Shown in pieces: positions 38,716-57,415 of a DNA stretch of 64,000 nucleotides. This stretch comes from Corallococcus macrosporus (GTDB lineage Bacteria; Myxococcota; Myxococcia; Myxococcales; Myxococcaceae). The first letter of the stretch is position 1, and each line of letters starts with the position of its first letter. The position numbers and the translations under genes were made by a program. The notes beneath the pieces are model-generated. The model was given only the letters and a program-made list of their open reading frames with translations. It was not told the DNA's origin and did no database searches. Location of the stretch: NCBI RefSeq assembly GCF_017302985.1, contig NZ_JAFIMU010000010.1, positions 124,001 through 188,000 on the forward strand. Reading direction: 5' to 3'.

Positions 38716-40041
38716 CTAGGTGAGGATGATGCGCGGGCTCTGCAGCGCGCGGCGCACGATGGCCAGCGCCTGCTCGGAAGCGGCCTCGGCCTCGGTGAGG
38801 CGGCGCAGGCAGACGTCGCCCGGCACCGACACGGAGCGCTTCAGGTCCGCCAGCAGCGTCAGCGCCGCCTGGAGCATCTCCTTGCCCTGCGCGGACTCCG
38901 CGGCCGGCTGGCCCGCGGCCTTCGACACGTGCGCCGTGAAGCGCTGCACCGCGTCCATGGTCGCGTTCGGGTCGTACTTCTCCAGCAGCGGCTTCAGCCG
39001 GTCCGGGTTGATGCGGATGAGGCGCAGCGCGCCGACCTTCTGGAAGGCCGGGTGCACCAGGCCGATCTCCGACATCTCGAACGCGCCCAGCAGGCCCTCG
39101 TCCGGCGCGCGGTGCGAGTGCGGCACCACGTCCACGAAGAGCGCCAGCGGATCCGCGCCCTGCTTGAACGCGTCCAGCTCCTCGTCATCCAGCGGCGGGA
39201 AGCTCGCGGGCGTGCCGATGAACAGCAGCGGCAGCACCACGTCGTGCCAGAACTCCTCCGGCGCGGAACCCGTGCCGCCCACCGTCGCCACCAGGTGCGT
39301 CATCAGCTCCGCCAGACGCGGGGCGCGCTCGGCCTGATCCGCCAGCGTCTTGCCCTGCTCCATGCGCTGCAGGGACGTGACGATCTGCCCCTCGAACTGC
39401 TGGCGGGCCTCCGGCGGCAGCGGCGGCTGGGTGCGGCCCAGCGCGTCACGCACGTCGCGCGCCAGCACGTCCGTCTTCGCCTCCAGCGTCTGCTTCGCCT
39501 TGGCCTGATCCACCACGATGAACTGGAGGAAGCCCGGGTCGAAGAGGCGCTGGTAGTCCTGGGGCGCCAGCTTCTGGGGCTGACCGCCGCCCAGGGCCTG
39601 CGCGGGGTTGGTGCCGAAGCGCACCTGCCCCAGCGAGCGGCGGATGTCGCTGGCCAGGTCGTCCAGGCGCGTCAACTTGCCCTGCGCCAGCGCGTCCATC
39701 ACCGCGCCGAACGGGGACAGCATGATGATGGCCTCGGGGAAGCCCAGCGAGGCGCCCTCCGGCGAGTCCCGGTTGGGGAACCAGAAGGCCTGGTGCTCGG
39801 AGATGAGCCGCAGCGCGAAGCCGCCCGCCAGGCCCAGCGCCGCGCCCTGGTGGTTCGGGTTGTTCGGGTCGAACCGGCCGCCCAGGAGCTGGATGACCGA
39901 CTTCTCCACGTCCGCCCACGGCGCCTTCGTCAGGTCGACCGGCGCGCCGCTGGCCTTCTCCAGTGCGGCGGAAATCTGGAGCTGCGCGTTGTGGACGTGC
40001 TGCGGAACAGGGAGCCCCTGGGGCTCGGCGGGTTCGGTCAT
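38716..40041 (-). CDS. Unrecognised 441-residue cytoplasmic protein
   Basis: I do not recognise a family. No signal peptide or transmembrane segment is seen. The N-terminal third has hydrophobic helices with the phrases NHQGAALGLAGGFALRLISEH and GFPEAIIMLSPFGAVMDAL. The centre is Gln/Lys-rich and helical, and a WHDVVLPLLFIGTPASFPPLDDEEL segment follows. The ATG at 40041 was chosen for AGGAATC upstream and for the start of high-GC3 coding; a longer frame to 40275 overlaps the divergent lipoprotein gene. It stands alone, between the convergent DUF2520 gene and the divergent peptidase-barrel gene. Codon use matches neighbours, so it is a real gene. Confidence 0.8.
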   Translation of the reverse strand: MTEPAEPQGLPVPQHVHNAQLQISAALEKASGAPVDLTKAPWADVEKSVIQLLGGRFDPNNPNHQGAALGLAGGFALRLISEHQAFWFPNRDSPEGASLGFPEAIIMLSPFGAVMDALAQGKLTRLDDLASDIRRSLGQVRFGTNPAQALGGGQPQKLAPQDYQRLFDPGFLQFIVVDQAKAKQTLEAKTDVLARDVRDALGRTQPPLPPEARQQFEGQIVTSLQRMEQGKTLADQAERAPRLAELMTHLVATVGGTGSAPEEFWHDVVLPLLFIGTPASFPPLDDEELDAFKQGADPLALFVDVVPHSHRAPDEGLLGAFEMSEIGLVHPAFQKVGALRLIRINPDRLKPLLEKYDPNATMDAVQRFTAHVSKAAGQPAAESAQGKEMLQAALTLLADLKRSVSVPGDVCLRRLTEAEAASEQALAIVRRALQSPRIILT

Positions 40042-40129: not shown

Positions 40130-43100
40130 ATGTCAGCTTCTCGCGGGCCTGCCCGCCAGCCCGCCATCCTCGCGTGTCTCCTTCTGCTGACATCGGGGTG
40201 TGCTTTCGTCGCACCCCGTTTTCCGCAAAACGTCCAGGCGTCGTTCGCCCGGGACGACATGCACAAGCTGACCACGCGTTCCCTGGAGCTCTACTACCCG
40301 GTGCACCTGCGCGCGACGGCGCTGCGGGTGGCCGCCCGGATGGAAGGCTGCGTGGAGCGGCTGCGCACCGACGCGTGGAGCAAGGCCGAGCGCAAGCGGG
40401 TCCTCGTCTACCTGACGAGCGCGGACTTCAACAACGCGTACGTCCAATCGGAGTTCGCCAGCACGCCGCAGCAGATGGTCCTGCCGCAGCACATGACGCT
40501 GGAGCAGTTCAACCTGCTGGGCCTGGGTGAGACGGACATCGGAGACGTGGCCTGTCACGAGTCCGTCCACTACGTGCAGATGCAGCAGGTCGGGGGCCTC
40601 TGGAACGTCCTCAACAAGGTCACGGGCGGCCTCTTCCAGCCCAACATCTTCACCGAGTCCTGGTTCCTGGAAGGACTGGCCACCTACTACGAGGGACGGC
40701 TGGGCAAGGACACGGGACGTCCCCACAGCCCGGTGTGGCGCGGCTGGTGGGAGGGCGCGGTGCAGGCCCGGCGCGGTGAGCTCAACGCGGGCTACCTGTC
40801 CCCGGAGCACCGCGCGCTGGAGCCGTTCGGCGGCAACTACCTGAGCGGCATGCACTTCGTGGAGTACCTGGCGAAGACCTACGGCGAGAAGCGCCTGTGG
40901 AAGCTGGTGGAGGAGCAGGGCAGCTCGCTGTTCCCGCCCGTCGCGGTGACGCTGCGGTTCAAGCGGGTGTACGGCAAGGACATCGGGTCGCTGTTCAGCG
41001 AGTTCGAAGAGAGCCTCCAGAAGGACCTCCCGGTGCGCGAGCGCCCCGCCACGCAGCAGGTGCTCGTGCGGGAGGGAGGCTACTTCTCGCGGCTCGCCGC
41101 GAACCCGCTCGACGGCAGCACCGCGCTCCTGAGCGTGGGCCGCGAGGAGATCACCCACCTCACCGTGCGCGAGCGCGACGGCCGCGAGCGCTTCAGCCGC
41201 GCGCTGGTGCAGCTCTTGCCCGGGCGCAGGTGGGTGGTGGCCAGCCCGTCGCTCGTCAGCGGCATGACGTTCAGCCGCGATGGCCAGTGGCTCTACCTGG
41301 TCAGCGCGGACGTGGACTCGGTGGGCAGTTACGTGGGGAAGCTGTGGCGGGTGGACGCGCGCACGGGCGACGTGGTGCGGCTGTGGGACGACCTGGACGG
41401 CATGGGCGGCGACGTCACCGCGGACGGCCGGGCCTACGTGTTCGTGGACGTGAAGGGTGACGCGGCGAACCTCGTGCGGTTGGACCTGGAGAGCGGCCAG
41501 CGCGAGCGGCTGACGGAGTTCCCGGCGCACACGGCGCTGGGCACGCCTGTCACGTCTCCTGACGGTGGGCGCTACGTGTTCCCCATGGCCGGCGCGCAGG
41601 GCTGGGACCTGGTGCTGCGCGAGCCGGACGGTTCGCTGCGCTGGCTCACGCGGGACGGGCTGTTCAACTACTCGCCCCGGTGGCTGGACGATGATCACCT
41701 CGTCTTCCTGCGCGAGCACGAGGGCCGGCTCCAGGCGCACGTGATGACGGTGTCCACGCGTCGCATCGCGCGGGTCACCGACGCGCCGCTGCTGGTGCTC
41801 GACGTGGCGCCCGTGGGCGGGGACACGGTCGTGTTCCTCAACCGCGACGGTGTCAACTTCACCGTGGACCGCGCGCCCCTCACCGAGGCCCTGGCGGAGC
41901 TGCGCGCGACACCGGAGCCCGCGTCCGAGAGCATCGCGGCCGCGCCGGCCCCGGCACCCGCGCCCCCGGAAGCGCCAGCCGCCCCGAGCACGGACGCGCA
42001 GGAAGGCTTCGTCGCCTTCCCGGGCCAGCCCGCGGCCCCGACGGATGCCCCCACGCAGGCGCCTGCCGATGCATCCATCGCCCAGGTAGCACCGCCGCCT
42101 CCGCCGCCGGTGGATCCCGCGCAGGACGTGGACGCCCCCGTGACGCCTCCCGCCGTCGCGGGCCGCGCGGTGGACGTGCTGACCGACGAGCCCTACTCGC
42201 CGCTCGAGGGCTTCTTCATCCCGAACTACCGGGTCCCCTACTTCTACACGGTCCCCAACGAGGTCGACGGCGAAGACCCTTACCTCGCCGCGGGCCTCTC
42301 CATCGCCGGCCAGGACCGGCTGGGCTTCCACGCCTACGCGCTCACGCTCACCTACGACACGAAGGAAGAGCAGCCCAGCCTGTCGTTCGCGTACGGCAAC
42401 GCGCAGTTGTCGCCCTTCTACCTCCAGGTCTCCGCGTCGCGCCTGCGCGAGGACGACCGCACGGACCTGCAGGCCACCGTGTTCGCGTCCCGCACGTTCT
42501 GGACGACGCCGGTGAGCTTCGGCGTGCTCGCGCTCGACCGCCGCTTCGACGCCACGGACCGCCGTCCGGCCATCACCACGCGCCTCATCGGTCCGGAGGT
42601 CGCCGCGTCGTACTTCTCCGGCGAGGGCACGTCCTACGGCGGCACGCAGCGCGGCCTGGGGCTATCCGTGAGCGGTGGCATCTTCCCGAAGGCGTTCACG
42701 CTCGACTCCGCCGTGGGCGACGTGCGACTGGGCGTGGATGGCTACCTGGGCGGCCTGCCCTTCACCGGCAAGGACAACCTCCAGCTCTCCGTCGTGGGCC
42801 GAGCCCTGCCCGGCGCGCCCGACGGCCTCCTGGAGGTCGGCGGCATCCTCCCGGGCCAGGCCTTCTTCATCAACCGCGACAGCACCAGCGATGGCGGCCT
42901 GCCCCTCCAGCTCCAGCCCGGGCTCGCCTTCAGCGAATACCTGCGCGGCTACGAGGACCACACCTTCCGCGCGCGCAACGTGCTCATCGCCAACGCGCGC
43001 TACCGCTACCGCTTCATCATCGACTACGGCTGGGCCTCCACGCTGTGGGTGCTGCCGTCGCTCTTCGTCAGCCAGGTGGAGCTGGACGGCTTCGGGTCCA

Positions 43101-43261
43101 TCGCGCGCACGGACAACCGGGACAACCACGCGGCGGTGGGCGGCATGGCCACGCTGCGGCTCACCGTGGGCCAAGCCTACGCCGTCGCCTTCTACTACCA
43201 GTACGCCCACCGCTTCGATGACGGCTTCGGCGACCTGCACCTCATCGGCGTGACCTTCTAG
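40130..43261 (+). CDS. Outer-membrane fusion: peptidase MA-like domain, beta-propeller, beta-barrel
   Basis: This 1043-residue protein has N-terminal signal AILACLLLLTSGC, with a plausible lipobox. Residues ~40-320 contain CHESVHYVQ (HExxH, His143/His147) and WFLEGLATYYEGRLG (Glu181). This pattern matches the peptidase MA-like zinc-protease family. Residues ~330-600 are TolB/WD40-like propeller blades (GMTFSRDGQWLYLVSADVDS, GTPVTSPDGGRYVFPM). A Pro/Ala-rich linker of ~80 residues follows. The last ~350 residues are alternating beta strands ending in LHLIGVTF; a terminal Phe is the hallmark of a barrel inserted by the BAM complex. A lipobox together with a C-terminal barrel is odd. It may cut or sense peptidoglycan or proteins at the outer membrane; substrate unknown. 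The ATG at 40130 was preferred to 40121 and 40109. Confidence 0.85.
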   Translation: MSASRGPARQPAILACLLLLTSGCAFVAPRFPQNVQASFARDDMHKLTTRSLELYYPVHLRATALRVAARMEGCVERLRTDAWSKAERKRVLVYLTSADFNNAYVQSEFASTPQQMVLPQHMTLEQFNLLGLGETDIGDVACHESVHYVQMQQVGGLWNVLNKVTGGLFQPNIFTESWFLEGLATYYEGRLGKDTGRPHSPVWRGWWEGAVQARRGELNAGYLSPEHRALEPFGGNYLSGMHFVEYLAKTYGEKRLWKLVEEQGSSLFPPVAVTLRFKRVYGKDIGSLFSEFEESLQKDLPVRERPATQQVLVREGGYFSRLAANPLDGSTALLSVGREEITHLTVRERDGRERFSRALVQLLPGRRWVVASPSLVSGMTFSRDGQWLYLVSADVDSVGSYVGKLWRVDARTGDVVRLWDDLDGMGGDVTADGRAYVFVDVKGDAANLVRLDLESGQRERLTEFPAHTALGTPVTSPDGGRYVFPMAGAQGWDLVLREPDGSLRWLTRDGLFNYSPRWLDDDHLVFLREHEGRLQAHVMTVSTRRIARVTDAPLLVLDVAPVGGDTVVFLNRDGVNFTVDRAPLTEALAELRATPEPASESIAAAPAPAPAPPEAPAAPSTDAQEGFVAFPGQPAAPTDAPTQAPADASIAQVAPPPPPPVDPAQDVDAPVTPPAVAGRAVDVLTDEPYSPLEGFFIPNYRVPYFYTVPNEVDGEDPYLAAGLSIAGQDRLGFHAYALTLTYDTKEEQPSLSFAYGNAQLSPFYLQVSASRLREDDRTDLQATVFASRTFWTTPVSFGVLALDRRFDATDRRPAITTRLIGPEVAASYFSGEGTSYGGTQRGLGLSVSGGIFPKAFTLDSAVGDVRLGVDGYLGGLPFTGKDNLQLSVVGRALPGAPDGLLEVGGILPGQAFFINRDSTSDGGLPLQLQPGLAFSEYLRGYEDHTFRARNVLIANARYRYRFIIDYGWASTLWVLPSLFVSQVELDGFGSIARTDNRDNHAAVGGMATLRLTVGQAYAVAFYYQYAHRFDDGFGDLHLIGVTF

Positions 43262-44521: not shown

Positions 44522-45712
44522 TCACCGCCCGGAAGCGTACAGCAGGGCGGGCTCGCGGTGCTTGCGGAAGGCCTCCGTCTGCGGCTCGAAGCCCTCCAGC
44601 ATCCGGTCCAGGCTCCACCCCTCCTCGATGCCACGACGCACCTGGTCGGTGCCGCACAGGAGGTCGAACGCGGGCACGTCCTCCACGAACTCGTACGCGT
44701 CCGCCCGCCAGTCGAAGTGCCCCGGGCCAATGTCGTGCAGCGCCTGGGTGATGGCGATGCCCGTGCGCAGCGGCTTGAACGCCTTGCGGTCCGTGACGTG
44801 GATGAAGGCCCCGTTGCACGACTGGCCCTTGAACTTGTCGAACGTCGGCGTGAAGCCCACCGGACGGAAGGCCACGCCCGGCAGCCGCTCCCTGTCCAGC
44901 CGGGCCATGAGCTGATCCGTGTCCACCCACGGCGCGCCGAACTGCTCGAAGGGCCGGCAGGTGCCGCGGCCCTCGGACACGTTGGTGCCCTCCAATTGGC
45001 ACATGCCCGGGTACACCAGCGCGGTGTCCGGGGTGGGCATGTTGGGCGACGGCGGCAGGAACGGCAGGCCCGTGTCGCTCCAGTACATGTCGCGCGTCCA
45101 GCCCTCGCACGGCACCACCGTGAGGTCGCAGCCGAAGCCCTCCTGCGCGTTGAACAGCCGGGCCAGCTCCCCCGCCGTCATGCCGTGGCGGTTGGGCAGC
45201 GCGTACAGCCCCACGAAGGAGCGGAACTTCTCCCCCACGAGGTTGCCCTCCAGCGTCACCCCATCCAGCGGGTTGGGCCGGTCCAGCACGTAGAACGCGA
45301 CGCGGGCCTGGGCCGCGGCCTTCATGGCCAGGGCCATGGTGTAGACGTAGGTGTAGTAGCGGCTGCCCACGTCCTGGATGTCGAAGACGAGCGCGTCCAG
45401 GCCCTTGAGCCACTCCTGGCGCGGGGAGAGCGACTCGAAGGTGGAGCCATAGAGGCTGTGCACCGGCACGCCCGTCTTGCGGTCGCGCGCCTCGTCCACG
45501 GCCACCATGTACTGGGCCTCGCCGCGGATGCCGTGCTCCGGGCCGAAGAGCGCCGCCAGCGTCACGCCCTCCGTGCCGGCCAGCAGGTCCGCCAGGTGGC
45601 GGAAGCGCGAGTCCACGCTCGTGGGATTCACGATGGCGCCCACGCGCTTGCCCTTGAGCGCGGAGAAGCCCTGCGCGGCCCACACATCCAGTCCCGTCTT
45701 CACCTTCGTCAC
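44522..45712 (-). CDS. namZ: Exo-beta-N-acetylmuramidase NamZ-like (DUF1343)
   Basis: This 396-residue DUF1343 protein belongs to the family in which NamZ from Bacillus was shown to release MurNAc from the non-reducing ends of peptidoglycan fragments. Conserved phrases are GKRVGAIVNPTSVD, LFGPEHGIRG, LVFDIQDVGSRYYTYVYTM, LDRPNPL, YPGMCQLEGTNVSEGRGTCRPFE (the GTNxSEGRGT signature) and GWSLDRMLEGF. No signal peptide is visible, so it may act in the cytoplasm on imported muropeptides or be exported another way. The GTG at 45712 follows GAGG by nine bases. It heads a three-gene unit with the phosphoesterase-like gene and nadD. Confidence 0.88.
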   Translation of the reverse strand: MTKVKTGLDVWAAQGFSALKGKRVGAIVNPTSVDSRFRHLADLLAGTEGVTLAALFGPEHGIRGEAQYMVAVDEARDRKTGVPVHSLYGSTFESLSPRQEWLKGLDALVFDIQDVGSRYYTYVYTMALAMKAAAQARVAFYVLDRPNPLDGVTLEGNLVGEKFRSFVGLYALPNRHGMTAGELARLFNAQEGFGCDLTVVPCEGWTRDMYWSDTGLPFLPPSPNMPTPDTALVYPGMCQLEGTNVSEGRGTCRPFEQFGAPWVDTDQLMARLDRERLPGVAFRPVGFTPTFDKFKGQSCNGAFIHVTDRKAFKPLRTGIAITQALHDIGPGHFDWRADAYEFVEDVPAFDLLCGTDQVRRGIEEGWSLDRMLEGFEPQTEAFRKHREPALLYASGR

Positions 45713-45773
45713 GTTCGGTCGCCTCGTCCCGCCGCCCACGGCATGCGCGGGCACGACAGGTCAGGTTCAGAGG

Positions 45774-50523: not shown

Positions 50524-52767
50524 ATGTATCGGCTCTGCCTGCTGGGATGTGTGGTGTTGCTGGCTGCCTGTGGGGAAAAGGCTCCCGACGAAGGCGCCAT
50601 CCGCGTGTCCGTGACCTACGGCTCCTTCAAGCCCGCGTGCCTGCGCGTCGAGGCGAAGGATGCAACCGGACACTCAGAGCGGACGGACATCCTCTCCAGC
50701 CAGTTCAAGAACGCTGACAAGCGAGAGGTCCTGGTCGCGGTGCGCCGCAAGGCGGACTGGGACACCGCGCTGAACGTCACCGTGTCGTCTTACGCGGCGG
50801 CGTCGGGGAACAGTTGCTCGGGCGAGGCCGTGGAGACCTTTCCGAGTAATTCACTCACCGTCGTGCCCAAGGAGTTCACGCGCTTCGACGTGACGCTGCA
50901 GGCCGTGGACGGAGACGGAGACGGTTCTCCCACGGGCATCGAATGGGCGGGGATCTCCGACTGCGACGACAAACGGGCCGACGTCCGTCCTGGCGCCGAT
51001 GAGAAGTGCGACACGGAAGTCGACTTCGACTGTGATGGCAAGAAGGCGTGCGCGGACTCGAAGTGCGCACAGAAGACGTGCACGGACGGGGACCTGTGCA
51101 ACACCGGCAAGCGGTGCATCGGAGTGGGCGCAGCGGCGGAGTGCGGGGGTGGCGAGCCGAAGTGCAAACAGACCGGGGGCCAGTGTCAGTCAGCGGTGCG
51201 GTGCGAAGCCTTCACGGGTCAATGCATCGATGAGATCGTGCTCGAGGGGACGGCCTGTGATCCCGGCGACAAGTGCGTGACGAATGGCCGCTGCACCGCC
51301 GACAAGCGATGCGTCGGCGATGTGAAGCCGTGCAACACACCGTTGGACGCCCAGTGCCAGGAGTCCGTGGGCACCTGCAACTCGACCAACGGCCTCTGTG
51401 AGTACGCCCCCAAGCCGGTCACCACGTCCTGCGTGGATGGGAACGTCTGCAATGATCCGGGGTCCTGCAATGGCAGTGGCGTATGCATCGGAACGCCCAC
51501 GCCGTGCCCGCCCAGGGAGTGCCATGCCGTGGCGGGTTGCACGCGCAACGCGTCCTGCGTCTACGCGGGTGACCCGGCGCAGGTCAACAACCCCTGCAGC
51601 GAGGACAACTCGGGAACGCCGCGCGTGTGCAAGGTGGATGGCCAGTGTGTCGCGTTCCCCTACAGCCCGAGCAACTTCGATCCGAACGACATTCCTGGTG
51701 GGCAGATTGGTGAGCTGAAAACCACCGGCGCGGTGGTGTTCGACACGGATGCCCGGACCTGGACCCCTGCGAATCTGGGCCCGGATACTGACGCGTTCAC
51801 AATCAGGGCCCTGCCCCAGGCTGGGGGCCCCGAGATTCTCCTCATCCCGGTACGGACCCTGGCCTTGGGTGGCGAGCTGCGCATCGTGGGCAGCCGCGCG
51901 GTCATCCTCGCGGTGTATGGGAATGCAACGTTAAGCCACGACATCCTCGCGAGCGGGCGCATTGTGAATGGCGAGCTGGTCCCTGGAAGTGGCGGCAATC
52001 AGCAGTGCGGGACTTCGACTGGAAAGAACGGGAAGTTCGGCGGTGGTGAGGGCGGTGGCGGAGGTGGTGCTGGTGGTGCGACGGTCGGGGCTGTTGGCGG
52101 CAAGGGCTACGACGACGGTGCCACGCGGGGCGACGCGGGCGCCCAGCAGGCCTCGGTCATCACGCCGCTCCTCGGCGGGTGCGCGGGAGGCAATGGTGGA
52201 GGCACGGGCGACGCGGCTGGTGGATTGGGCGGTGCCGGTGGTGGCGCACTCCAGCTCTCCGTTGCCAGGACCCTGACCATCAGCAAAACCCTTTCCGTCA
52301 GCGGCGGGGGTGGCTTGGGCGGCAAGGTGAGCACTTCGCCTGCCCAGGCGGCAGGGGGTGGAGGCGGCGGGAGCGGAGGACGCATCGTGCTGGAAGCCTT
52401 CCAGGTGAGCCTGACCGCCGATGCCAGTCTCACCGCCAATGGCGGCGGAGGTGGCCAGGGCGCCGGCCAGAGCGTCGGCTTCGCGAACAATGGAGCAGAT
52501 GGTGCGAATGGCAGCGAGACCACTAGCACCACCGCGAGTGGTGGGACTGGTGGCAGCACGCTGGGAGGCACGGGCGGAGCCGGTGGCGCCCTGGACATCC
52601 CGACGGCTGGCGGCGCAGGAAGCACGGTCCCTGTCGCTGGCGGTGGCGGCGGTGGCGGCGGCGGCGGTGGCGCCGCGGGCTTCATCTACCTGCGCAGCAT
52701 GCGGCCCTGCATGGTGAACACCACGGTGGTCAGCCCCACGCCCACGGGAGGCTGCACTCCCCTGTGA
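50524..52767 (+). CDS. Cys-rich/Gly-rich surface lipoprotein, paralog 1 of 3
   Basis: This 747-residue protein has lipobox LLAAC (Cys16). A ~110-residue N-terminal beta domain is followed by a MopE-like putative metal-binding motif (DGDGDG, DCDD, DVRPGADEKCD; ~137-171). A Cys-rich region (~170-375) has repeated C-x-D-G-x-x-C units such as TCTDGDLC and SCVDGNVCND, probably disulfide-bonded. A beta module (FPYSPSNFDPNDIPGGQIGELKTTGAVVFDT) leads into ~220 residues very rich in Gly (GGGEGGGGGGAGGAT) and a short tail YLRSMRPC. No catalytic motif is present. The layout suits a matrix or cell-surface structural protein. The N-terminus is almost identical to paralog 2, while the Cys-rich and later parts resemble paralog 3. 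Confidence 0.85.
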   Translation: MYRLCLLGCVVLLAACGEKAPDEGAIRVSVTYGSFKPACLRVEAKDATGHSERTDILSSQFKNADKREVLVAVRRKADWDTALNVTVSSYAAASGNSCSGEAVETFPSNSLTVVPKEFTRFDVTLQAVDGDGDGSPTGIEWAGISDCDDKRADVRPGADEKCDTEVDFDCDGKKACADSKCAQKTCTDGDLCNTGKRCIGVGAAAECGGGEPKCKQTGGQCQSAVRCEAFTGQCIDEIVLEGTACDPGDKCVTNGRCTADKRCVGDVKPCNTPLDAQCQESVGTCNSTNGLCEYAPKPVTTSCVDGNVCNDPGSCNGSGVCIGTPTPCPPRECHAVAGCTRNASCVYAGDPAQVNNPCSEDNSGTPRVCKVDGQCVAFPYSPSNFDPNDIPGGQIGELKTTGAVVFDTDARTWTPANLGPDTDAFTIRALPQAGGPEILLIPVRTLALGGELRIVGSRAVILAVYGNATLSHDILASGRIVNGELVPGSGGNQQCGTSTGKNGKFGGGEGGGGGGAGGATVGAVGGKGYDDGATRGDAGAQQASVITPLLGGCAGGNGGGTGDAAGGLGGAGGGALQLSVARTLTISKTLSVSGGGGLGGKVSTSPAQAAGGGGGGSGGRIVLEAFQVSLTADASLTANGGGGGQGAGQSVGFANNGADGANGSETTSTTASGGTGGSTLGGTGGAGGALDIPTAGGAGSTVPVAGGGGGGGGGGGAAGFIYLRSMRPCMVNTTVVSPTPTGGCTPL

Positions 52768-52887
52768 CGGGTCTGTGGGACCCCTGCCATCCCCATCAGC
52801 GCCAGTCGCAGTCTACCCGCCACGGCCGGCTGCACGCGGCCTTGGCCCGTCTCCTCCGCGAGGCTTCAGAGGAGGAGGGCCGACAGG

Positions 52888-52893
52888 TAGACT
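52888..52893 (+). promoter_or_regulatory. -10 element TAGACT, 8 bases before start (paralog 2)
   Basis: AGG-TAGACT-GCGCAGCC-ATG, the same spacing as for paralogs 1 and 3. A GGAGGAGGG stretch ~20 bases further upstream is too far from the ATG to be a ribosome site. Confidence 0.45.
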
Positions 52894-52901
52894 GCGCAGC
52901 C

Positions 52902-55109
52902 ATGTATCGGCTCTGCCTGCTGGGATGCGTGTTGCTGCTGGCCGCCTGTGGCGAGAAGGCGCCCGACGAAGGCGCCATCCGTGTGGCCGTGACCTACGGC
53001 TCCTTCAAGCCCGCATGCCTGCGCGTCGAGGCGAAGGACGCGAACGGGCATTCCGAGCGGACGGACATCCTCTCCAGCCAGTTCAAGAACGCTGACAAGC
53101 GAGAGGTCCTGGTCGCGGTGCGCCGCAAGGCGGACTGGGACACCGCGCTGAACGTCACCGTGTCGTCGTACGCGGCGGCCTCGGGGAACGGTTGTGACGG
53201 GCCCTTCGTGGAACGGCACGAGAGCAGTGGTCCCCTTCCCATCGTCGCCAAGAAGTTCACGAACTTCGAAGTGCTCTTGAAAGCGTCGGACGTGGACGGC
53301 GACGGCCATCTGGCGGGTGCCATGTGGGACGAGCCCGAGGACTGCGACGACTCGAAGCCGGATGTGCACCCGGGTGCCGTGGAGTCTTGCGGTGCCACCG
53401 TGGACATCAACTGCAACAAGCTGGTGGGCTGCCAGGAGGCAGGCTGCGGGGGCAAGTCGTGCGACGACAGCAGTGCCTGCACCACGGGAGACCACTGCGA
53501 GGGTTCAGGCCTGGACGCGAAGTGCATGCCTGGTCAGACGAAGACGTGCACGCAGCCCACGGGCATCTGTGATGCGCCCCAGGCATGCAATCCCAACACA
53601 GGTGCATGCGAGGCCCAGGCGGTCCCGACTGGAAAGAGCTGCGACGACGGGAACAATTGCACGGACATGGACGCCTGCGGAGCCGATGGGAAATGCGCAG
53701 GCACCGCTCGCACGTGCGTCTCCAACGGACAATGCGTGCAGAATCAAGGCACTTGCAACCCGATCACCGGAGCCTGTGTCTTCACTCCGCTTCCGAACAC
53801 GACCTCCTGTCAGGACCCGCTGACGTGCACCACCTCGGACCGCTGTGACGGAAGCGGCAACTGCGTGGGCACCCCTGGGACTTGCGCTCCCCCTCCGTGC
53901 TACCGCGTGAAGCAGCAGTGCACGGCCAGCACCGAGTGTGAGTACGAGGTGGACCTCAACGCCGCATGCAGCACGTCCGGTGGCGTCCCCGGCGTGTGCT
54001 CGGCAACGGCCGAGTGCAGCCCCTTCCCCTACCGGCCCTCCAACTTCGACCCGAATGCCGTCGTGGCGGCGGACATCGGGGAGTTGAAGACCAGCGCGAA
54101 CGTGACGTTCAACACCGCCGACCAGACCTGGTCGCCGTCGAGCGCGGTCACGACGCTGGCCAGCCTGCACGTCATGACGATCACCCAGGGTGCCGGAAAT
54201 CCCCCGGCGCTCCTCATCCCGGTGAAGGCCCTGGAATTGAATGGCAGCCTCACCATCACCGGCCCCCTCCCTGTCATCCTGGCCGTCTACGGCGCGGCGA
54301 CCGTGGACCAGTCCATCCTGGCCACCGGCAGCATCTTGAATCCCAACTTGGCCTGCGGCGCGTCCCAGGGCACCGCGGGCACCTTCGGCGGCGATACGGG
54401 CGGCGGGGGTGGCGGAGGCGGCAATACCACCGCGGGCGGGAATGGCGGCAAGGGCTATGACAATGATCAGCCTCAAGGTGGGGCCGGCGTCCTCCGGCCT
54501 TCCGGGCTTGAACCGCTCCTGGGAGGCTGCCCGGGGGGAAATGGTGGAAGCGGGGGACCTTCGTCCGCGGGAGGCAAGGGCGGAGCGGGAGGTGGTGCCA
54601 TCCAGCTCTCCGTCGCTCGCACCCTGACCATTTCGAAAATGGTCTCCGCGAGCGGGAACGGGGGTGAAGGCGGCAAGGCGGGCGGGGGCAAGGGAGCTGG
54701 CGGCGGAGGCGGCGGCAGCGGTGGACGGATCGTTCTGGAAGCCTTGCAGCTGTCGCTGACTTCCGCCGCGCGTATCACCGCAAATGGCGGCGCTGGCGGC
54801 GAGGGAGGTTCCAGCGCCAACAATGCTGGCGAGAATGGCTCCAGCGGCAGCCAGGACACGTCCATTCCCGCGAGTGGCGGAAGCGGCGGAGCCGTGACGG
54901 GAGGAGACGGCGGCGACGGCGGCACAGGCACGGTTGGCCCGGGTAAAGGCATTAGTGGAAGCAGGGATGGTTTCAGCGGCACCGAGGGCGGCGGCGGTGG
55001 TGGTGGTGGCAGTGTGGGCTCCATCCACCTGCGCAGCGTCCAGAGCTGCACCCTGCCCGTCGGTCACGTCATCAGCCCCCCAGCCACGGGCGGCTGCGTG
55101 GCCCCCTGA
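52902..55109 (+). CDS. Cys-rich/Gly-rich surface lipoprotein, paralog 2 of 3
   Basis: This 735-residue paralog has lipobox LLAAC (Cys16). Residues 1-~95 are nearly identical to paralog 1, with only a few substitutions (S/A, T/N). After that the two diverge: the metal-binding motif is DVDGDGHLAG, DCDD, DVHPGAVESC, and the Cys-rich block has its own spacing (GCGGKSCDDSSACTTGDHC). The conserved FPYRPSNFDPNAVVAADIGELKTSANVTF module returns, then a Gly-rich region and a YLRS-like tail (HLRSVQSC). A start at 52902 was chosen because it matches the other copies; an open frame reaching 52764 has no signal peptide. It is transcribed in the same direction and 134 bases after paralog 1. Confidence 0.85.
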   Translation: MYRLCLLGCVLLLAACGEKAPDEGAIRVAVTYGSFKPACLRVEAKDANGHSERTDILSSQFKNADKREVLVAVRRKADWDTALNVTVSSYAAASGNGCDGPFVERHESSGPLPIVAKKFTNFEVLLKASDVDGDGHLAGAMWDEPEDCDDSKPDVHPGAVESCGATVDINCNKLVGCQEAGCGGKSCDDSSACTTGDHCEGSGLDAKCMPGQTKTCTQPTGICDAPQACNPNTGACEAQAVPTGKSCDDGNNCTDMDACGADGKCAGTARTCVSNGQCVQNQGTCNPITGACVFTPLPNTTSCQDPLTCTTSDRCDGSGNCVGTPGTCAPPPCYRVKQQCTASTECEYEVDLNAACSTSGGVPGVCSATAECSPFPYRPSNFDPNAVVAADIGELKTSANVTFNTADQTWSPSSAVTTLASLHVMTITQGAGNPPALLIPVKALELNGSLTITGPLPVILAVYGAATVDQSILATGSILNPNLACGASQGTAGTFGGDTGGGGGGGGNTTAGGNGGKGYDNDQPQGGAGVLRPSGLEPLLGGCPGGNGGSGGPSSAGGKGGAGGGAIQLSVARTLTISKMVSASGNGGEGGKAGGGKGAGGGGGGSGGRIVLEALQLSLTSAARITANGGAGGEGGSSANNAGENGSSGSQDTSIPASGGSGGAVTGGDGGDGGTGTVGPGKGISGSRDGFSGTEGGGGGGGGSVGSIHLRSVQSCTLPVGHVISPPATGGCVAP

Positions 55110-55151
55110 GTTGTCCTTTCCCGTGTAATTCCAGCAAAGAGGGAGGACGAG

Positions 55152-55157
55152 TACAGT
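55152..55157 (+). promoter_or_regulatory. -10 element TACAGT, 8 bases before start (paralog 3)
   Basis: GAG-TACAGT-GCGGCACC-ATG, almost identical to the sequence before paralog 1. A GAGGGAGGA run lies ~25 bases upstream of the ATG, too far for ribosome binding. Confidence 0.5.
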
Positions 55158-55165
55158 GCGGCACC

Positions 55166-57415
55166 ATGCGTCTGATTTGTCTATTGACCTGCGTGGTGCT
55201 GCTGTCCGCCTGTCGGATGAAAGACCCGGCTGAGGGCGTCCTTCGCTTGACGGTGAAGTATCCCTCCTACACGCCCCAGTGTCTCCGCGTGGAGGTAGGC
55301 GACGGTCACAACCAGGTGGGCACCGACCTTCCCTCCAGCCAGGCCAAGGACCCTGACGCGAAGGAGGTCCAGGTCGCGATGGTCCGCAAGCCGGGGTGGG
55401 GGAATCGGCTGAACGTGAAGGTGACCTCGTTCGCAGCCTTCAGCGGCATTCAATGCGCAGGCTCGGTCGTGGAAGCCCACGAGGATCGCGCGTTGGATGC
55501 GCCTCCTGGAAAGTCCATCGACTGGACCGTCACGCTCCAAGGCCAGCAGGCGGCGGACGCGGATGGTGACGGTTTCGTCCCAGGCATGCCCGGAGTGGAG
55601 TCGCCCGACTGTGACGATACCCGCGCGGACGTCCATCCGGGCGCTGAGGAGAAATGCGACACGGCAGTCGACTTTGACTGTGACGGCAGGAAGGCATGCG
55701 CGGATCCGGACTGCTCCGACAAGACGTGTACGGACGGGGACCTGTGCACCCAGGGCAAGCGGTGCGTTGGCGTGGGCGTTATGGCCGAGTGTGGGGGCGG
55801 CGAGCCGAAGTGCAAACAGACCGGGGGCCCGTGTCAGTCGGCCGTGCGGTGCGAGGCCTCCACGGGTGAATGCATTGATGAGACGGTGGACGAGGGAACA
55901 GCCTGTGATCCTGGCGACAAGTGCGTGAACAATGGCCGGTGCACTGCCGACAAGCGGTGCGTGGGTGACGTAAAGACGTGCAACACACCGTTGGACGCCC
56001 AGTGCCAGGAGTCCACGGGAACCTGCAACTCGACCAATGGCCTATGTGCGTACGCCCCCAAGCCGGTCACCACGTCCTGCGTGGATGGCAATGTCTGCAA
56101 CGATTCAGGATTCTGCAATGGCAGCGGTGCATGCAACGGCACGCCCACGCCCTGCCCGCCCAAGGAGTGCAACAGCGTCGCCGGCTGTACGCGCAATGCC
56201 TCCTGCATCTACGCGCCTGATACGGCACAACTCAACCTGCCCTGCAGCGAGGACAACTCGGGAGCCCCACGCGTGTGCCGTGCGGATGGCCAGTGCGTCG
56301 CGTTCCCCTACACACCCGCAAACTTCGATCCGAATGCGATTCCAGGCGGGCAGATTGGTGAACTGAGGACCACCGGGGCGGTGGTGTTCGATACGGACAC
56401 GAGAACTTGGACCCCCTCTGCGGCCGGTCCCAATGTGGAGAATCTCACCATCAGAACCGTTACCCAGGCTGGAGGCGCCCCGGAGGCCCTGCTCATCCCG
56501 GTGAGGGCCCTGGTCCTCGGCGGTGAACTGCGCATCGTGGGCAGCCGCCCGGTCATCCTCGCGGTGTATGGCGATGTGGCGTTGAACCACGACATCCTCG
56601 CTAGCGGGCGCATCGTGAACGGTGCGCCGGTTCCAGGCGCAGGCGGTACTCAGCAGTGCGGGACATCAACTGGAAAGAACGGGACGTTCAGCGGTGGCGA
56701 GGGTGGCGGCGGCGGTGGAGCGGGCGGTGCGACGGCCGGTGCTATTGGCGGCAGGGGCTACGACAACGGTGCCACGCAGGGTGACGCGGGCGCGCAGCAG
56801 GCCTCCGTCATCACGCCGCTCCTCGGAGGATGTGCGGGAGGCAGTGGCGCAGGCATGGGCGGCACGAGCGGTGGGTTGGGCGGCGCCGGAGGTGGCGCAC
56901 TCCAGCTCTCCGTCGCGAGGACCCTGACCCTCGGCAAGGCCCTTTCCGTGAGCGGCAGCGGCGGCTTAGGAGGCCAGGCAACTGTTTCGCCCGCCCAGGC
57001 GGCAGGTGGTGGAGGCGGCGGAAGCGGTGGCCGGATGGTGCTGGAAGCATTCCAGATAAACCTGTCGACTGGTGCGCGACTCACCGCCAATGGCGGTGGG
57101 GGTGGCCAGGGTGGCGGTGCCGGCTCCGGATCTGCGAGCAACGGAGCGAACGGCACGAGTGGCAGCGAGACCAGCGGAAGCAGCGCTAGCGGCGGCACCG
57201 GGGGCAGCACTTCAGGTGGTGCGGGTGGCTCGGGTGGTACATCGAGCAATCCCACCTCGGGTGAGAACGGAACCGCAATCATCTTGGCAGAAGGAGCTGG
57301 CGGTGGTGGCGGTGGTGCCGCAGGCTCCATCTATCTGCGCAGCATCCGGTCATGCGCCGTAAATGCCGCCGCCGTCGTCAGCCCCCCGGCCACGGGTGGC
57401 TGCACTCTCCCCTGA
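55166..57415 (+). CDS. Cys-rich/Gly-rich surface lipoprotein, paralog 3 of 3
   Basis: This 749-residue paralog has lipobox LLSAC (Cys16). The N-terminal domain has diverged (MKDPAEGVLRLTVKYPSYTPQ). From the metal-binding motif onward (DADGDGF, DCDD, DVHPGAEEKCD) it is very close to paralog 1: the Cys-rich block CGGGEPKCKQTGG, TACDPGDKCVNNGRCTADKR and KPVTTSCVDGNVCND matches almost residue for residue. So do the FPYTPANFDPNAIPGGQIGE module and the Gly-rich part with VITPLLGGCAGG. It ends with the shared tail YLRSIRSC. No enzyme motif is present. The transcript probably ends before the palindromic promoter of the next gene, though no terminator was recognised. Confidence 0.85.
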   Translation: MRLICLLTCVVLLSACRMKDPAEGVLRLTVKYPSYTPQCLRVEVGDGHNQVGTDLPSSQAKDPDAKEVQVAMVRKPGWGNRLNVKVTSFAAFSGIQCAGSVVEAHEDRALDAPPGKSIDWTVTLQGQQAADADGDGFVPGMPGVESPDCDDTRADVHPGAEEKCDTAVDFDCDGRKACADPDCSDKTCTDGDLCTQGKRCVGVGVMAECGGGEPKCKQTGGPCQSAVRCEASTGECIDETVDEGTACDPGDKCVNNGRCTADKRCVGDVKTCNTPLDAQCQESTGTCNSTNGLCAYAPKPVTTSCVDGNVCNDSGFCNGSGACNGTPTPCPPKECNSVAGCTRNASCIYAPDTAQLNLPCSEDNSGAPRVCRADGQCVAFPYTPANFDPNAIPGGQIGELRTTGAVVFDTDTRTWTPSAAGPNVENLTIRTVTQAGGAPEALLIPVRALVLGGELRIVGSRPVILAVYGDVALNHDILASGRIVNGAPVPGAGGTQQCGTSTGKNGTFSGGEGGGGGGAGGATAGAIGGRGYDNGATQGDAGAQQASVITPLLGGCAGGSGAGMGGTSGGLGGAGGGALQLSVARTLTLGKALSVSGSGGLGGQATVSPAQAAGGGGGGSGGRMVLEAFQINLSTGARLTANGGGGGQGGGAGSGSASNGANGTSGSETSGSSASGGTGGSTSGGAGGSGGTSSNPTSGENGTAIILAEGAGGGGGGAAGSIYLRSIRSCAVNAAAVVSPPATGGCTLP

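Follow-up and report, generated by a model that had tools for sequence, protein, structure and literature searches.

A predicted zinc peptidase, a TolB-like propeller and an Omp85-type barrel in one chain of a myxobacterial protein family

One gene of the window (the whole 64,000-nucleotide stretch of Corallococcus macrosporus DNA that was analysed) encodes a protein in which a predicted zinc peptidase, a TolB-like propeller and a barrel of Omp85 ancestry follow one another without a POTRA domain. This WD40-Omp85-type protein is reasonably likely to act as a periplasm-facing zinc peptidase anchored in the outer membrane, with the propeller docking or gating its substrates. Comparison across Myxococcota indicated that the three domains were inherited together, and that a lipobox and two further cysteines belong to one clade.

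Domain order and distribution in Myxococcota

The initial annotation had read from the letters a zinc-peptidase-like domain, a TolB-like propeller, a Pro/Ala linker and a C-terminal barrel. This order was borne out, and the domain-architecture check found members with the same peptidase-propeller-barrel order in 20 of the 23 Myxococcota genomes sampled (13 from the order and 12 from the phylum, with two counted in both). Conservation along the protein was at its maximum in the peptidase domain and at its minimum in the linker. The features are listed in Table 1.

Table 1 Features of the gene and of its surroundings (positions in the window)
Feature	Position	Strand	Evidence or remark
Whole-protein CDS, 1043 aa and stop	40130..43261	+	ATG at 40130, stop 43259-43261
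Predicted signal peptide and lipobox LLLLTSG↓C, lipid-acceptor candidate Cys24 (codon 40199-40201)	40130..40201	+	
Predicted gluzincin / Peptidase-MA-like domain, residues ~36-305	40235..41044	+	PF13485 weak match, profile comparison
Cys74, candidate disulfide partner of Cys142	40349..40351	+	cysteine conservation
Cys142, immediately N-terminal of the HExxH motif	40553..40555	+	cysteine conservation
HESVH zinc motif, residues 143-147	40556..40570	+	conservation
WFLEGLATYYEG, residues 178-189, third zinc-ligand candidate Glu181 and conserved Glu188	40661..40696	+	conservation
TolB/PD40-like beta-propeller, residues ~306-592	41045..41905	+	NCBIfam, PDB, AF2, Foldseek
Pro/Ala linker, residues ~593-685, variable in length and sequence	41906..42184	+	conservation, gap lengths
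Predicted Omp85-type 16-strand beta-barrel, residues ~686-1043, C-terminal Phe	42185..43258	+	AF2, Foldseek, profiles
LRGYE, Omp85 loop-6 (V/I/L)RG(F/Y) motif, residues 938-942	42941..42955	+	conservation, AF2 strand positions
Upstream of the gene: clpA-like, DUF2520, divergent hypothetical gene			conserved synteny
Downstream of the gene: nadD, hypothetical gene, namZ, cyclase			conserved synteny

The alignment contained 26 proteins, 8 of clade A (the clade of the window protein) and 18 others, and many of them were about 20% identical to the window protein. The N-terminal part and the barrel, each placed in its own tree, gave the identical split of the 8 clade-A proteins from the 18 (support 100/100), which argues that the co-inheritance of the three domains, and hence their fusion, is old. 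Both clades were present in two genomes. A long-branched outlier among the 18, a 1181-aa relative (L075, 5399-8941), has HEFTH and AEGVA at a wider spacing and no RG motif, and is possibly a further subfamily.

A tblastn search of plasmids gave TolB and other propellers, and one peptidase-propeller protein without a barrel on plasmid pSR116 of Salinibacter ruber (L076, 2912-4813). This protein (WP_118831798.1, 633 aa, annotated as 'basic secretory protein-like') resembles the window protein in its HELVH ... IEGMA peptidase followed by a PD40 propeller, but stops after the propeller, which suggests that the peptidase-propeller pair exists apart from the barrel in another phylum.

The N-terminal domain is probably a gluzincin, a zinc peptidase resembling Peptidase MA. 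HE[SA]VH and WFLEGLATY[YF]EG were invariant in all 15 close relatives, and H143, E144, H147 and E181 were kept in 26/26 of the phylum-wide relatives (E188 in 25/26). The predicted zinc-peptidase signature, HExxH with a third Glu ligand, was thus retained in every homolog aligned; its loss in most homologs had been named in the initial annotation as the outcome that would speak against the proposal. Matches to known families were weak: two family members matched PF13485 (Peptidase_MA_2) at E 0.009, the window protein scored 13.8 bits, below the gathering cut-off of 32.4, and the family profile matched an M1 aminopeptidase of the PDB over the peptidase region at E 0.04. The peptidase profile was also compared with three other proteins of the source genome that carry PF13485, two of them above the Pfam cut-off, and gave 79.8% (clade A), 94.5% (clade B) and 95.6% (both clades); the alignment pairs HExxH and EGLA, and reversed controls reached at most 0.4%.

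The propeller was recognised from sequence, as the initial annotation had proposed, by matches to TolB in NCBIfam (1.9e-8) and in the PDB (7e-9 by sequence and 4e-34 by family profile). It was modelled at a pLDDT of about 70-89 across much of the domain, and Foldseek matched it to TolB. The whole protein was considered as a TolB and rejected, its score being 33.7 bits against an NCBIfam equivalog cut-off of 343.

The mature window protein contains cysteines at 24, 74 and 142 only, and all three were present in 8/8 clade-A proteins and in 0/18 of the others. The lipobox that had been suspected in the initial annotation gained support, as Cys24 was invariant among close relatives and earlier-branching members have the textbook lipoboxes LAGC, CAGC and LVGC. 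By these counts, the lipobox is the mark of only one long-branched clade. Cys74 and Cys142 could form a putative disulfide next to the zinc motif, and their conservation would suit an oxidising compartment. The Pro/Ala linker was present and had no invariant residue over 601-660 among close relatives. The gap between propeller and barrel measured 32-170 aa in clade A and 31-85 aa elsewhere (31-45 aa in 19 of the 26 proteins), and the long Pro/Ala linker was limited to part of clade A.

Assignment of the barrel to the Omp85 superfamily

Profile comparison and motif conservation place the barrel in the Omp85 superfamily, an assignment that the first reading had overlooked. When the clade-A barrel was aligned directly with the Omp85 proteins of the source genome, the LRGY segment alone aligned, and weakly, so the link was made through the clade-B homologs. 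By hhalign, the clade-A barrel matched the clade-B barrel at 98.5% over 325 columns (E 2.4e-15), and the clade-B barrel matched the POTRA-bearing, BamA-type Omp85s of the source genome at 98.9% (E 2.8e-17); these values are single comparisons and not a database search, and reversed-sequence controls for the clade A/B and Omp85 comparisons gave a probability of at most 5.1%. The peptidase and propeller profiles of the two clades matched at 99.5% and 99.6%, respectively. The Pfam Omp85 cut-off (PF01103) was passed by 9 of 15 scanned clade-B homologs. The window protein alone had no PF01103 match in Pfam, and no Omp85 or peptidase match in Pfam, NCBIfam or the PDB; the family profile matched TamA of the PDB weakly (E 0.05).

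The segment LRGY (938-941) falls after predicted strand 11 and before strand 12, the position at which Omp85 proteins such as BamA have their loop-6 RG motif, and Arg939 was kept in 25/26 and Gly940 in 26/26 of the aligned proteins. A count of 16 strands was obtained both in the full-chain AF2 model (mean pLDDT 49.6, poor apart from the propeller) and in the barrel model (pLDDT 55.6), both of low confidence because the alignment was shallow, with just 15 related sequences. The barrel ending in Phe that had been read from the letters was confirmed as regards the Phe, and the barrel model, though weak, has 16 strands and resembles Omp85 barrels; the result that had been named beforehand as contrary, a structure without a closed barrel, did not appear. 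In a Foldseek search with the barrel model the best 50 matches were all TamA, BamA or SAM50 (best E 2.4e-6). VIA-align placed Omp85 level with the unrelated barrels AlgE and OprD, so the fold alone is no proof of Omp85.

No Pfam POTRA match was found in the family. The propeller-barrel gap is short in 19 of the 26 proteins, and in the rest it is filled by low-complexity sequence or variable linker, which leaves no space for a conserved POTRA domain. The source genome has six further places above the Omp85 cut-off, one of which is a BamA with several POTRA-like repeats (judged by eye).

The gene and its neighbourhood

The gene is present in one copy in the source genome (9.8 Mb, 17 contigs) and has a GC3 of 0.94, like the adjoining genes. 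Full-length orthologs were 80-90% identical in Corallococcus and 54-62% identical in Archangium, Hyalangium and Citreicoccus, and the gene order around the ortholog was kept in these relatives. The divergently transcribed gene (38719-40041, minus strand) encodes a 441-aa protein that is 67-99% conserved among relatives and gave no Pfam match. A gene for a NamZ-type exo-beta-N-acetylmuramidase (44525-45754, minus strand) lies near nadD in conserved synteny. Several opposite-strand ORFs nearby are GC-rich shadows, and a scan for promoters and terminators around the gene found none.

A functional partner was not found among the gene neighbours, which are nadD and namZ in clade A and an alpha/beta hydrolase in clade B. 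At eight clade-B loci (L046, L049-L054, L067) the hydrolase gene precedes the family gene in the same orientation, in most of them directly adjoining it, and is a possible functional partner of these eight genes. In Corallococcus praedator (L007, 7459-9790), about 2 kb of stop-rich sequence lie 3' of the gene, ahead of nadD, and end with a second copy of the last 69 codons of the gene (78% identity to the window protein); the arrangement reflects either a partial duplication accompanied by an insertion or an assembly error. Elsewhere in the window, three tandem paralogous putative lipoproteins of 747, 781 and 749 aa (50524-57415, plus strand) have lipobox-like starts, Cys-rich segments near 'DGDG..CDD' motifs and Gly-rich C-terminal halves, and their GC3 is below that of their neighbours.

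Known relatives and proposed function

The initial annotation knew of no characterised protein with this layout. The layout is indeed uncharacterised, but it is not unknown: with the barrel in the Omp85 superfamily, it belongs in the WD40-Omp85 subfamily, defined in 2014 by Heinz and Lithgow as a TolB-like propeller with an Omp85 barrel (PMC4104836). Like that subfamily, the window protein has an N-terminal TolB-like propeller, an Omp85-type barrel and no POTRA; it differs in its peptidase domain, the word 'peptidase' being absent from the text of that paper, where the 'Metallo' Omp85 subfamily rests on PF00149, a different domain (PMC4104836). By its domain layout, the window protein therefore fits the WD40-Omp85 type, to which it adds a gluzincin domain in the same chain. 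A 2024 paper described these Omp85 subfamilies as still not well characterised (PMC11116518).

Other relatives share parts of the layout. PlpD of Pseudomonas, which among enzyme-bearing Omp85 fusions has been studied best, likewise has an enzyme domain N-terminal to an Omp85 barrel (PMC11116518), but the domain is patatin-like and not a zinc peptidase, and it has one POTRA and no propeller. The combination of a lipobox with a barrel, which had been called unusual, has a precedent in the lipidated TamL and 'Lipo' Omp85 proteins of Bacteroidota (PMC12045153). These share the N-terminal lipidation (here predicted from the lipobox) and differ in having POTRA domains, no enzyme and no propeller. 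By functional analogy alone, the Escherichia coli proteins BepA, BamB and BamA also bring together a zinc peptidase, a propeller lipoprotein and an Omp85 barrel, but as separate chains, with BepA of family M48 and BamB of a different propeller family. BepA works in the periplasm, where this zinc peptidase is reported to act on LptD at the BAM complex (PMC8423444). As a further candidate analogue, BamP from the BAM complex of Flavobacterium was considered and set aside, its paper mentioning neither a peptidase nor a propeller.

The phylum-wide relatives with unchanged zinc-binding residues point to a protein that is probably a membrane-anchored periplasmic protease. The protein would be exported by Sec and, in clade A, lipidated at Cys24; by analogy with other Omp85 proteins, the barrel would be embedded in the outer membrane, with peptidase and propeller facing the periplasm. 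PlpD lends support to this placement by analogy, as its enzyme domain stays periplasmic (PMC11116518), and BepA offers a precedent for a zinc peptidase in this compartment (PMC8423444). The propeller may dock, recruit or gate substrates, a role close to the substrate selection suggested in the initial annotation, and cleavage by the zinc site would take place on the inner side of the outer membrane. Possible substrates are outer-membrane or exported proteins that are misassembled or still maturing, and in lipidated members the lipid anchor and the barrel would hold the peptidase to the membrane from both ends.

Three other readings were weighed. The protein might work as an insertase or translocase of the Omp85 type, with its propeller and peptidase standing in for POTRA domains, the barrel assembling or exporting clients and the peptidase processing them in transit. 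Omp85 ancestry, the conserved loop-6 RG motif and the likening of WD40-Omp85 to a BamA-BamB fusion with a favoured assembly role (PMC4104836) all agree with it. It is nevertheless unlikely, given the missing POTRA, the six further Omp85 places in the genome, one of them a BamA with POTRA-like repeats, and the example of PlpD, an Omp85 barrel that is useful without a known assembly role (PMC11116518).

Myxobacteria are predators, and the barrel could export the other two domains of its chain to the surface, as an autotransporter does, where they would digest prey or matrix proteins. That lifestyle and the long, flexible Pro/Ala linker would suit such display. The linker measures just 31-45 aa in 19/26 members, however, so a device for passage has not been conserved in the family; clade A carries a lipobox at its N-terminus, and PlpD, formerly held to be surface-displayed, is periplasmic (PMC11116518); display is accordingly improbable. 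A vestigial or non-cleaving zinc site would leave a structural anchor whose propeller ties the outer membrane to peptidoglycan or Pal. TolB binds Pal, and TolB is the closest match of the propeller, but the invariance of HExxH and the third Glu in 26/26 proteins, many about 20% identical, is unexpected for a dead enzyme and makes such an anchor similarly improbable. The classes TolB, autotransporter and dead enzyme were weighed and not favoured.

Extending the preferred reading of a periplasm-facing anchored peptidase, the protein may be a one-chain quality-control machine of the outer membrane, in which a propeller and a zinc peptidase replaced POTRA and do BamA-, BamB- and BepA-like jobs jointly, ancestral to Myxococcota and with a lipid anchor and a disulfide by the active site in one clade; this proposal is a tentative and rather doubtful one. 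Bacteria, mitochondria and chloroplasts all rely on Omp85 proteins to build their outer membranes. The POTRA-less, enzyme-bearing Omp85 branches are almost unstudied, and PlpD recently revealed unexpected abilities. The family described here is spread through a phylum with a complete predicted zinc-peptidase site, and would combine a protease, a binding platform and a membrane barrel in one gene.
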